A DNA stretch of 64,000 bases. It comes from an uncultured Oscillospiraceae bacterium (GTDB lineage: Bacteria > Bacillota > Clostridia > Oscillospirales > Acutalibacteraceae). Numbering within the stretch: the stretch's first letter is position 1; every line of letters starts with the position of its first letter. The notes under the pieces are model-generated. The model ran no database searches. It saw only the letters and a list, made by a program, of their open reading frames with translations, and was not told the origin of the DNA. The stretch covers positions 310,001 through 374,000 of the forward strand of contig CASEMN010000001.1 in the NCBI GenBank assembly GCA_949289045.1. Reading direction: 5' to 3'. Of this stretch, positions 17,727 to 36,834 are shown in pieces. The translations under genes and the position numbers were made by a program.

Positions 17727-17810
17727 GCGAGAGTGGCGGAATCGGCAGACGCGCACGTTTGAGGGGCGTGTGGTAATCCCGTACGGGTTCAAGTCCCGTC
17801 TCTCGCACCA
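17727..17810 (+). tRNA. tRNA-Leu, anticodon GAG
   Basis: Class II tRNA with a 7-bp acceptor stem GCGAGAG/CTCTCGC, a discriminator A and an encoded CCA. The anticodon stem CACGT/GCGTG encloses the 7-base loop TTGAGGG with GAG at positions 34-36. The long variable arm is followed by the T arm CGGGTTCAAGTCCCG. The length is 84 bases including CCA. It decodes CUC/CUU leucine codons. Confidence 0.97.
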
Positions 17811-33506: not shown

Positions 33507-34760
33507 TTAAGCATTATCTACTTTTCTGCTCTTTTTTGACGATAAAATGTAAAGTGGTATGGCAGAAAGCTGAGCGATTACCGAAATTGCTACCATGGCG
33601 GGAATACTTATATCGTACATCACACCTAAAAGCCAGCTTCCAAGGAACCAAAATATGCCAAAAGAGCATTCAAAAATTCCGTAACCTGTAGCACGGCTTG
33701 TTTTAGGTACCATACTTGTAACAGCTGCTTTTAAAATAGATTCCTGAGCTCCCATGCCAACTCCCCACAGGGCTATACCTATAACAACTGCGGGAACTGA
33801 TTTACAGGAGAACACCAAAATCGGAAAGGGTGCTGAAATAATCGTTGAAACCACAAGGGCTTTTACACCCTTTTTATCGTACAGATACCCGAAAAACAGT
33901 GCCGCCACAGCATCTACGAGCATTGCTCCGGCGTATAACAGCGGCAATGTACCGCTGTTTACAAGAGAAGATGTTTCCGCTGCACTTGATGCAAGAGCGG
34001 TATATGTACGTGAAACGTGCATTATTACAATTGAATAATCTATAAATCCAAATGCGAATAGACTTATTCCTGCAATGTAAAGGATAAATTCCTTCTTCAG
34101 CTTAAAGGGAATATATTCTTTGGGTTCAGGCTCAAAATGTTCCGGATTCGGGAACTTCCGCTTTGTAATAAAAAGCAGAATGATTGTTATGGCTCCTGGA
34201 ATTGCAAGAAAGGCAAAGGCGGTAGAATAAATTTCAAAGGTTGTTCCGTCAGTTTTAAAGAGCATTACAAGATAAAGCAGGACTGGTCCTAAGAATGCGC
34301 CTATCTGGTCAAGAAGCTCCTGTATACCGAAGCTTTTTCCTATCCCCTCCTGAGAGGCGGCAAAAGAAAGAATGGTATCCTTTGCGGGCTTTTTTATGGC
34401 TTTACCCATACGCTGAACCACAAGCAGTGCACAGGCCCATATCCAGCCATGTTCACCTACAAGGGCAAGAGCCGGAACTGCTATAATATCGAGAATATAA
34501 CCGAGTATAGTCATGGGCCAATATTTTTTGGTTTTATCCGTAAGCTTTCCGAAAACATATCTCATTGAATATCCGATAAGTTCACCGAGGCCGGAGACAA
34601 AGCCTATAACTCCTGCGGAAGCTCCCAGCAGTGAAAGATAAACTCCACGTATACTTGATGCTCCCTCATGGGTCATATCTGAAAAAAGGCTGACTATGCC
34701 GAACAAAAGCACAAACAGCATAGCCTGAGAAAGCTTCTTTTTATAATCAGTCTTTTTCAT
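33507..34760 (-). CDS. MFS transporter, probable drug efflux
   Basis: Major facilitator of 417 residues with twelve predicted helices. The first ends with the acidic SDMTHEGASSIRGVYL; the loop 2-3 motif is FGKLTDKTKKYW. A central cytoplasmic loop (about 205-222, EHFEPEPKEYIPF) divides the two six-helix halves. LGASAGVIGFVSGLGE resembles fosmidomycin/multidrug MFS proteins. It overlaps the marR stop by 14 bases, so the two are an operon. Function as an exporter is inferred from the regulator pairing; the substrate is unknown. Confidence 0.87.
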   Translation of the reverse strand: MKKTDYKKKLSQAMLFVLLFGIVSLFSDMTHEGASSIRGVYLSLLGASAGVIGFVSGLGELIGYSMRYVFGKLTDKTKKYWPMTILGYILDIIAVPALALVGEHGWIWACALLVVQRMGKAIKKPAKDTILSFAASQEGIGKSFGIQELLDQIGAFLGPVLLYLVMLFKTDGTTFEIYSTAFAFLAIPGAITIILLFITKRKFPNPEHFEPEPKEYIPFKLKKEFILYIAGISLFAFGFIDYSIVIMHVSRTYTALASSAAETSSLVNSGTLPLLYAGAMLVDAVAALFFGYLYDKKGVKALVVSTIISAPFPILVFSCKSVPAVVIGIALWGVGMGAQESILKAAVTSMVPKTSRATGYGIFECSFGIFWFLGSWLLGVMYDISIPAMVAISVIAQLSAIPLYILSSKKSRKVDNA

Positions 34761-35226
34761 TTTGATTTTCCTCCCGTATAAGTTTACTCATATTTGGAAA
34801 ACCGGCTTTGCTTTCCTCTTTGCAGCGTCTATAGAGTACATCAAGCAAAGATGCAAACTGCTCACGTTCTCCTTCGTTTAACGGCTCTGCAAGCCACTGA
34901 TAAAAAAGCGCTTCAATATGAGCTTTTGAGTTCTTTAATCTTTCTGATTTCTCTGTTGCATATAGGAGACGGCTTCTGGCGTCGTTGGGATTAGACTCTT
35001 TAATCAGATAGCCTTTTGCTTCAAGGCTTGCCGCCTGCCTTGCAACTGCCGCTTTATCTATACCCAGTATCTTCTGAACTCCTGCCTGAGTAATACCTGG
35101 ATTTTTACGCACCGCATGAATAAAATCAAACTCAGAAGGGCCTATGCCTTCCTCTTTTAACGTTCTTACAGTGAATTTGCTTACTTCACGGGCAATTTTT
35201 GTTATTTTTCTTCGGGTTACATCCAT
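34747..35226 (-). CDS. MarR-family transcriptional regulator
   Basis: Winged-helix regulator of 159 residues. The core PGITQAGVQKILGIDKAAVARQAASLEAKGYLIKE (recognition part KAAVARQAASL) plus the wing NPNDARSRLLYATEK is the MarR pattern. The N- and C-terminal helices that form the dimer are present. GGAG precedes the ATG. It heads the operon with the MFS gene; its promoter overlaps a palindrome of the kind MarR dimers bind, so it likely represses itself and the transporter until a ligand binds. Confidence 0.92.
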   Translation of the reverse strand: MDVTRRKITKIAREVSKFTVRTLKEEGIGPSEFDFIHAVRKNPGITQAGVQKILGIDKAAVARQAASLEAKGYLIKESNPNDARSRLLYATEKSERLKNSKAHIEALFYQWLAEPLNEGEREQFASLLDVLYRRCKEESKAGFPNMSKLIREENQNEKD

Positions 35227-35244
35227 GTTATCAGCTCCAATAAA

Positions 35245-35278
35245 GATGATGCATCAACTAAACAGATGATATATCAAC
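35245..35278. promoter_or_regulatory. Tandem palindromic operators for the MarR regulator
   Basis: Two near-identical sites, GATGATGCATCAAC and GATGATATATCAAC, each with a perfect 10-bp palindrome (TGATGCATCA, TGATATATCA), begin exactly 20 bp apart, so they lie on the same face of the helix. The distal one covers the -10 of the marR promoter, the other lies downstream of the start point. This is direct sequence evidence for repression by a dimeric regulator. Confidence 0.8.
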
Positions 35279-35294
35279 TTTATTATAATGTCAA
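35266..35294 (-). promoter_or_regulatory. Promoter of the marR-MFS operon
   Basis: On minus: perfect TTGACA, a 17-base spacer and TATCAT, about 40 bases before the marR start. The -10 is inside one of the palindromic operators. Confidence 0.8.
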
Positions 35295-35322: not shown

Positions 35323-35351
35323 TTGACAAAATGGAAATTTAAGTATATTAT
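35323..35351 (+). promoter_or_regulatory. Promoter of the MATE leader
   Basis: Perfect TTGACA, a 17-base spacer and TATTAT on plus. Transcription from about 35358 would produce a leader of some 120 bases before the MATE start, holding the attenuator structure. Confidence 0.8.
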
Positions 35352-35362
35352 ATAAACATAAA

Positions 35363-35442
35363 CCGCCACAATAAGGCGGCGTGGATTTTAGGTATAAATT
35401 ACTTTTCGCCACACAATTCTTTTGGATTGTGCGGCTTTTTTT
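35363..35442 (+). promoter_or_regulatory. Terminator/antiterminator attenuator before the MATE gene
   Basis: Three elements: hairpin P1 CCGCC-ACAATAA-GGCGG (35363-35379); a terminator with GCCACACAAT/ATTGTGCGGC (35408-35435, one mismatch) and seven T (35436-35442); and a copy of the terminator 5' arm in P1 itself, CCGCCACAAT, which can pair with the 3' arm ATTGTGCGG (9 bp, one bulge). Pairing of the early copy would break both P1 and the terminator. So the leader can switch between ON and OFF. It matches no riboswitch class I recognise. Confidence 0.7.
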
Positions 35443-35481
35443 ATGAGCTGATTTTACTGTAATTAAAGGAGTTTACGATTA

Positions 35482-36834
35482 ATGAACCAGACTTTTATGA
35501 AAGACAAGCCAATTTTGCCACTTGTACTGTCAATGTCTCTGCCCATGGTACTTTCCATGATGGTAACATCACTGTATAACATAATTGACAGCTTCTTTGT
35601 GGCAAAAATAAGCGAAGACGCAATTACTGCACTGTCACTTATATTTCCTATGCAGAATTTTATTAATGCCGTTACAATAGGCTTTTCCATAGGAATAAAC
35701 GCTGTTATTTCCTATAATTTGGGAGCTAAGGACTTTAAGAAAGCAAATATCGCCGCAACTCAGGGTCTGTTTTTAAATACCCTCCATGGCGTTATCCTCA
35801 CAATAGGATGCATTACTATTCTCCCTGTATTTTTAAAAATGTTTACGGAAGATGAAGCAGTAATAGATCTTGGTCTCAGATATTCATACATAGCTTTTAG
35901 CTTCGGTGTTATTATAGCTTTAGGAATGTCCTTTGAGAAAATTTTCCAGTCCGTAGGAAAAATGACCCTTACAATGATTGCAATGCTCTGCGGATGTATA
36001 GCAAATATTATACTTGATCCCGTTCTTATTTTCGGAATAGGATTTTTCCCTGAAATGGGTATAGAGGGAGCGGCTTTGGCTACTGGCATCGGACAGACTA
36101 TAAGCCTTCTGATATATGTTGTATTCTATATTTTTAAACCCCTTCACGTTAAAATAAGTTTTAAGTATTTTTCATTTGACAAAAGCATCATCAAAAAGCT
36201 TTACACTATCGGCATACCGGCTTCGCTTAATATTGCGCTGCCGTCATTCCTTGTATCTTCACTGAATGTTATTCTTTCGGTTTATTCTCAGGCCTATGTA
36301 CTTGTACTTGGTGTTTATTATAAACTTCAAACTTTCCTATATCTTCCAGCAAACGGAATAGTTCAGGGAATACGTCCCTTAATCGGATATAATTACGGTG
36401 CTGGAGAACACGCAAGGGTTAAAAAAATATATATGACATCCCTTTCTCTTTCAACAGCAATAATGCTTCTTGGCACTGTTCTGTGCTGGACTATCCCCTC
36501 TCAGCTTATAGGACTGTTTACTTCGAACGCCGAAACCATTGCCATAGGCACGAGTGCACTGAGGATTATCAGCCTTGGTTTTATTGTTTCAACTGTATCT
36601 GTCATCTCCTCAGGGGCTATGGAAGGTCTTGGAAAAGGTATGCCATCACTGATTATCTCATTGATGAGATACGCCGTTATAACGGTTCCGGCGGCATATA
36701 TTTTAAATCTCATATTTGGCGCTGTAGGTGTGTGGCATTCTTTCTGGGTGGCAGAGTTGCTGACAGCAATTATTTCTTATTTCATTTATAAAAAATCAAC
36801 ATCAAGCAGAAACGTCAATAAAGTAAATAATTAA
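35482..36834 (+). CDS. MATE-family multidrug/Na+ efflux transporter
   Basis: Multidrug and toxic compound extrusion pump of 450 residues with twelve predicted membrane helices in two homologous halves. The N-terminal PILPLVLSMSLPMVLSMMVTSLYN block (PMVLSMM, YNIIDSFFV) and the middle ANGIVQGIRPLIGYNYGAGEH are conserved in the NorM/DinF-like MATE group. AAGGAG lies 9 bases before the ATG. It is transcribed away from marR, from its own promoter through a terminator-type leader, so expression is probably conditional. The substrate is unknown. Confidence 0.92.
   Translation: MNQTFMKDKPILPLVLSMSLPMVLSMMVTSLYNIIDSFFVAKISEDAITALSLIFPMQNFINAVTIGFSIGINAVISYNLGAKDFKKANIAATQGLFLNTLHGVILTIGCITILPVFLKMFTEDEAVIDLGLRYSYIAFSFGVIIALGMSFEKIFQSVGKMTLTMIAMLCGCIANIILDPVLIFGIGFFPEMGIEGAALATGIGQTISLLIYVVFYIFKPLHVKISFKYFSFDKSIIKKLYTIGIPASLNIALPSFLVSSLNVILSVYSQAYVLVLGVYYKLQTFLYLPANGIVQGIRPLIGYNYGAGEHARVKKIYMTSLSLSTAIMLLGTVLCWTIPSQLIGLFTSNAETIAIGTSALRIISLGFIVSTVSVISSGAMEGLGKGMPSLIISLMRYAVITVPAAYILNLIFGAVGVWHSFWVAELLTAIISYFIYKKSTSSRNVNKVNN

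Follow-up and report, generated by a model that had tools for sequence, protein, structure and literature searches.

The leader of a MATE efflux transporter gene in the window, as we call the whole 64,000-nucleotide stretch of DNA analyzed here, very probably carries an attenuator with a conserved antiterminator helix, P2, and both are well supported by comparison among relatives. As a whole, the element is probably an orphan riboswitch-like ON switch, in which an A-tract and a U-run would form a pseudoknot or triplex and MATE efflux would be controlled by antitermination. The leader appears to belong to a previously unlisted and very compact RNA family present in Clostridia, many of them gut bacteria.

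Architecture and family of the MATE leader

The regulated gene (35482-36834, + strand) encodes a MATE efflux transporter (PF01554, E 5.7e-48; TIGR00797, E 1.2e-62) and has the Shine-Dalgarno sequence AAAGGAG at 35465-35471. Its leader lies downstream of a sigma-70 type promoter, TTGACA-N17-TATTAT (35323-35351, + strand), which matches the consensus at 11 of 12 positions, in agreement with the original prediction. Promoters with 9-12 of 12 matches were found in 62 of 77 homologue leaders, usually 8-10 nt 5' of an A-tract. This tract is AAA in the window (35360-35362) and AAAA in most relatives, and it lies near the RNA 5' end because the distance from the -10 box is 8-10 nt in 48 of 62 cases. 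It is followed by an optional hairpin, P1 (CCGCC/GGCGG, 35363-35379, CCGCCACAATAAGGCGG), which most relatives replace by a linker of 4-9 nt.

The conserved part of the leader comprises the P2 5' strand GUGG (35381-35384), a conserved A with the 5' U-run (A-Y-UUU, 35385-35389), the small hairpin P3 (GUA-UAAAU-UAC, 35392-35402), a 3' U-run UUUU with an internal-loop C and G (35403-35408), and CCAC (35409-35412), which is both the P2 3' strand and part of the terminator 5' arm. The 3' U-run with its C and G is near-invariant, as is A-Y-UUU in A1, A3 and A4, where the near-invariance was partly enforced by the selection of seeds. The intrinsic terminator predicted by folding, GCCACACAAUUC-UUUU-GGAUUGUGCGGC and then U7 (35436-35442), occupies 35408-35442. 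Its folding energy is -16.2 kcal/mol (z = -6.7 against 200 shuffles), which bears out the earlier claim that the leader contains a terminator, and the entire 86-nt leader gave z = -5.0 against shuffles.

Relatives' loci were gathered from genomes via the MATE protein, yielding 86 parsed, dereplicated examples of the family. The consensus consists of the A-tract, the short linker or P1, GUGG-A-Y-UUU(U), P3, UUUU-Y-G-CCAC and a terminator; in the relatives, the CCAC of the motif is included in the terminator 5' arm. A covariance model (R1, 48 seeds) recovered the element from 69 of the 83 sources, that is, the window and the loci, at E <= 2e-5, most of the matches being seeds or near relatives of seeds; the seed sequences were picked by pattern, so that the "invariant" positions were partly fixed by selection. 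Because the window's own locus had seeded R1, a second model (R2) was built from sequences outside the window's clade. R2 detected the window element with 29.1 bits (E 8e-7), and in a genome-wide search this element ranked first (E 1.8e-5), the next match having an E of 0.055.

Among sampled genomes, matches occurred in 11 of 391 of the class (weak terminator-less matches included), in 6 of 297 and 40 of 348 of two families, and in 24 of 392 of the order to which the latter family belongs; weak model matches lacking a terminator were counted as chance. The 98 pattern matches in viral contigs included none with an A-tract plus a matching terminator. No Rfam 15 family matched the leader element at gathering or relaxed thresholds, consistent with the original assessment that it falls into no known class, and the best sub-threshold score in the window was that of PyrR (19.8 of 54 bits). 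The sole Rfam hit in the window was a tRNA-Leu (GAG) at 17727-17810. Searches of open-licence literature returned no report of a MATE-linked riboswitch in Lachnospiraceae, which is weak evidence of absence given that coverage, and the main texts of the Breaker-laboratory motif surveys contained nothing relevant on MATE genes or efflux.

The antiterminator P2 and its exclusion of the terminator

The conserved antiterminator is P2, the helix of GUGG (35381-35384) with CCAC (35409-35412) around the U-rich internal loop and the small hairpin. Since CCAC is common to P2 and the terminator 5' arm, the two structures are mutually exclusive. P2 was paired in 99% of alignment cells and was nearly invariant, so that informative cases of covariation were few. 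These cases replace the usual GUGG/CCAC/GUGG of the three strands by AUGG/CCAU/AUGG, GUGG/CCGC/GCGG, GUGG/CCAU/AUGG or GUGA/UCAC/GUGA. Joint changes of the shared strand and its partners occurred in at least about six separate lineages of the MATE tree, as well as in a copy before a permease gene (L127) that lies off this tree; the covariation statistics ignore kinship. P3 also covaried, the best end-to-end stem averaging 4.07 against 3.09 (sd 0.09) for permuted homologues and exceeding both shuffled and slid controls, again in statistics that ignore kinship.

Partition-function folding of the window leader at increasing lengths gave P2 a probability of about 1 with the free 3' end at 35413-35429 and of 0 once 35435 was out, when the terminator reached 0.99-1.0. 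In 84 relatives, early P2 had a median probability of 0.89 and the terminator, at the end, one of 0.99, and about 29% of the relatives had an early P2 below 0.5 in this plain secondary-structure model. Comparison and folding together demonstrate a conserved family in which the predicted P2, P3 and terminator are conserved jointly, with P2 and the terminator as modeled alternatives. Holding P2 would block the base of the terminator and thereby turn the gene on.

A compact terminator/antiterminator switch upstream of the MATE gene and co-oriented with it had been proposed in the original prediction, and this logic is supported, ligand sensing as suggested there being plausible, whereas the helix that was named as the switching element is not the conserved one. 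The elements of that proposal are present: the near-identical segments CCGCCACAAT (35363-35372) and CGCCACACAAT (35407-35417), the GGCGG at 35375-35379 and the terminator 3' arm ATTGTGCGG (35426-35434). The early segment, which lies in the P1 loop, was supposed to break the terminator by pairing with ATTGTGCGG, but it forms just 6 contiguous base pairs with this arm (35367-35372 with 35426-35431). Folds that include these pairs reach -19.3 kcal/mol at best against a minimum of -27.6 kcal/mol, about 8 kcal/mol worse, and the probability of the pairing was below 0.001 at every transcript length. The segment is also unconserved: the sister copy L002 has CCGCCGCAAT, the loops of L032, L034 and L035 are unrelated, and the hairpin is altogether absent from most of the family. 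Over 74 homologues, helices between the leader and the terminator arm averaged 5.47 bp against 5.30 bp (sd 0.09) with permuted leaders, an excess too small to indicate a functional pairing. A switch operated by the duplicated arm is thus extremely improbable, even though both segments exist.

Regulated genes and genomic context

With few exceptions, the genes downstream of matches that keep a terminator belong to one MATE subfamily or to a nitroreductase-MATE-MATE operon. One exception is a switch with GUGA/UCAC as P2 (L127, 1489-1561, - strand), located before the second copy of a uracil permease gene. About 30 relatives had orthologues of this permease gene without the motif, and the permease context is therefore a single case. 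A variant with GUGG-G-UUUUU and CCGC (L291; G977:C49:231-291, - strand) precedes a partial ORF at a contig end, which we take to be YgjV-like, and another element precedes a MATE remnant (L122).

Near-identical operons consisting of the switch, nitroreductase and two MATE genes were found in L039-L050, L054, L057, L112, L258, L259 and L329-L332, which come from numerous genera of Clostridia and from a single Treponema MAG (L047). In L041, the operon adjoins a gene that presumably is MobC-like. The near identity across genera and this neighbor suggest a recent spread on mobile elements in gut bacteria. The genes neighboring the element included no recurrent linked regulator gene.

Some MATE orthologues (L063, L066 and L080) have only a simple terminator leader, GAGCCA...UGGCUC-U6, after the promoter. 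Two further orthologues lacking the switch (L033 and L105) share the tip GUUUCUGAG(A/U)UAAAC on a long terminator hairpin of another kind, possibly a further terminator-embedded element.

In the window, a MarR-family regulator (PF12802) and an MFS transporter form a putative operon divergent from the MATE gene (33507-35226, - strand). Two inverted-repeat blocks, GATGATGCATCAAC and GATGATATATCAAC (35240-35294), span the divergent promoter of MarR type, and the sister genome L002 largely retains them; they are probably an autoregulatory MarR operator, which may act on the MATE promoter too. We also considered a plain bidirectional terminator of an upstream transcript, which does not fit the arrangement: the upstream gene is transcribed in the divergent direction, and the MATE promoter precedes the terminator.

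Proposed mechanism, alternatives and relation to known systems

The lengths of the A-tract and the 5' U-run are correlated. AAA occurred with UUU in 7 members and with UUUU in 4, AAAA or longer occurred with UUUU or longer in 72, and AAAA or longer was never combined with UUU (Fisher p 8e-8 ignoring kinship, with UUU in two lineages and four exceptions). Three members (L095, L151 and L152) had no clear A-tract. From the topology, we propose that the A-tract may dock in the U-rich loop as a pseudoknot or triplex: given the strand directions, it could form Watson-Crick pairs with the 5' U-run, and the 3' U-run could join as a Hoogsteen third strand.

In the nascent RNA, the P2 hairpin capped by P3 would form with its U-rich internal loop, and the A-tract would dock in this loop by forming Watson-Crick pairs with the 5' U-run, possibly with the 3' U-run as a third strand. 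When the ligand is absent, the growing terminator would capture CCAC from P2 once its last GGC is made, and transcription would stop at 35436-35442. When the ligand is present, the pseudoknotted P2 would hold, the terminator base would stay open and the MATE gene would be transcribed. The ligand would most likely be a compound that is exported or detoxified by the pump. We consider a ligand-sensing riboswitch to be the best reading of the element and a likely one, and here we infer the docking of the A-tract, the sensing, the ON direction and the nature of the ligand. The near-exclusive tie to one gene family gives little hint of the ligand, and the sensing could be the work of a protein or another signal. 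A more specific version is tentative, and we would give it somewhat less than an even chance: a new riboswitch class, with an aptamer among the smaller ones (about 45-55 nt) beginning almost at the mRNA 5' end, which uses an A-tract triplex in the U-rich loop to sense directly a toxic compound exported by MATE and travels with the pump and nitroreductase on mobile elements of gut bacteria.

Only a few switches are known that control drug or toxin efflux in response to small molecules, and the guanidine riboswitches set the precedent that such RNAs may reveal an unsuspected natural compound. As the RNA is short and testable, its hosts include cultured bacteria (among them Eubacterium ramulus ATCC 29099 and Catenibacillus scindens DSM 106146) and it is tightly linked to one transporter subfamily, identifying its ligand would reveal the natural substrate of a MATE pump widespread in the gut. 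The existence of a mobile version with nitroreductase and two MATE genes points to a real toxin or drug as the selective agent.

Among the alternatives, protein-dependent antitermination, in which an RNA-binding protein binds P2/P3 and stabilizes them against the terminator, is unlikely but the best of those considered. It would follow the logic of the RAT antiterminators of BglG/LicT proteins, which are small hairpins with internal loops overlapping a terminator; the element is likewise such a hairpin, and its strong sequence conservation would suit a protein-binding site. However, its sequence and target genes differ from those of RAT, no cognate protein gene is linked to it, and it moves with the nitroreductase-MATE-MATE operon through many genera and into the Treponema MAG without a partner gene. 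An unregulated partial terminator, whose hairpins merely set a fixed low expression, is still less probable. A strong promoter and a terminator would suffice for it, and the orthologues with plain terminator leaders show such an arrangement, but it needs neither conserved unpaired nucleotides, nor a second helix, nor correlated lengths of the A- and U-tracts.

Nucleotide sensing at initiation is a slightly weaker and improbable alternative, in which slippage on the A-tract would yield a longer 5' poly(A), which would block the terminator by pairing with the U-runs. The usual position of the tract after the -10 box, the C or U that follows it in 77 of 77 cases and the one member before a uracil permease copy are in its favor. 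It also resembles the attenuation of Bacillus subtilis pyrG by reiterative transcription (G-slippage), where a 5' homopurine tract able to pair with a pyrimidine run prevents termination. In contrast to pyrG, the gene function is different and the A-tract does not always coincide with the start site: it lies 14-24 nt after the -10 box in L078, L293, L127, L276, L265 and L267, too far for start-site slippage. Moreover, nothing evident connects MATE with nucleotide supply.

That the element is a divergent guanidine-IV/mepA or Gd4v riboswitch is highly improbable. Guanidine-IV (GGAM-1, mepA motif) and its variant Gd4v occur in Firmicutes leaders of MATE genes among others, measure about 90-100 nt and contain a pseudoknot, and their intrinsic terminator is prevented in the ON state (PMC7736828, PMC11611296, PMC9788692). 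The element shares with them the type of gene and the ON-type terminator logic (PMC7736828, PMC9788692). In guanidine-IV, a highly conserved G/U/G in the terminator-hairpin loop is required for binding (PMC7736828), and both classes require conserved terminator-loop nucleotides (PMC7736828, PMC8632094, PMC9788692), the terminator hairpin itself carrying the binding loop that pairs with the loop of the first hairpin. By contrast, the terminator tops of our family (5-54 nt) were all different in 86 of 86 sequences and had no such conserved loop, and the conserved A-tract, GUGG-A-Y-UUU and UUU-Y-G-CCAC are all 5' of the terminator. The loci read had neither sugE/COG2076 exporters, which are associated with guanidine-IV, nor a transaminase downstream of the element.

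Attenuation through a leader peptide, with a ribosome stalled by a drug on GTG GAT TTT..., can be dismissed as extremely unlikely: the window has a 21-codon open frame from the GTG at 35381, but the GUGG-to-UUUYGCC spacing modulo 3 (21/16/14) does not keep the frame and many relatives have a stop after 4-5 codons, so there is no leader peptide.

The proposed ligand-sensing riboswitch has a structural likeness to H-type pseudoknot or major-groove triplex RNAs, which include SAM-II, preQ1-II and ENE elements. The proposed A-strand would lie in a U-rich internal loop with a polarity that permits U.A-U triples, and the likeness is a resemblance in proposed topology; in contrast to ENE elements, the A-tract is here 5' of the hairpin. 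As in transcriptional riboswitches in general, a conserved cis-acting RNA precedes related genes, with a terminator and an antiterminator that exclude each other. The mechanism is of a known kind, and the RNA family appears to be new within the resources searched.
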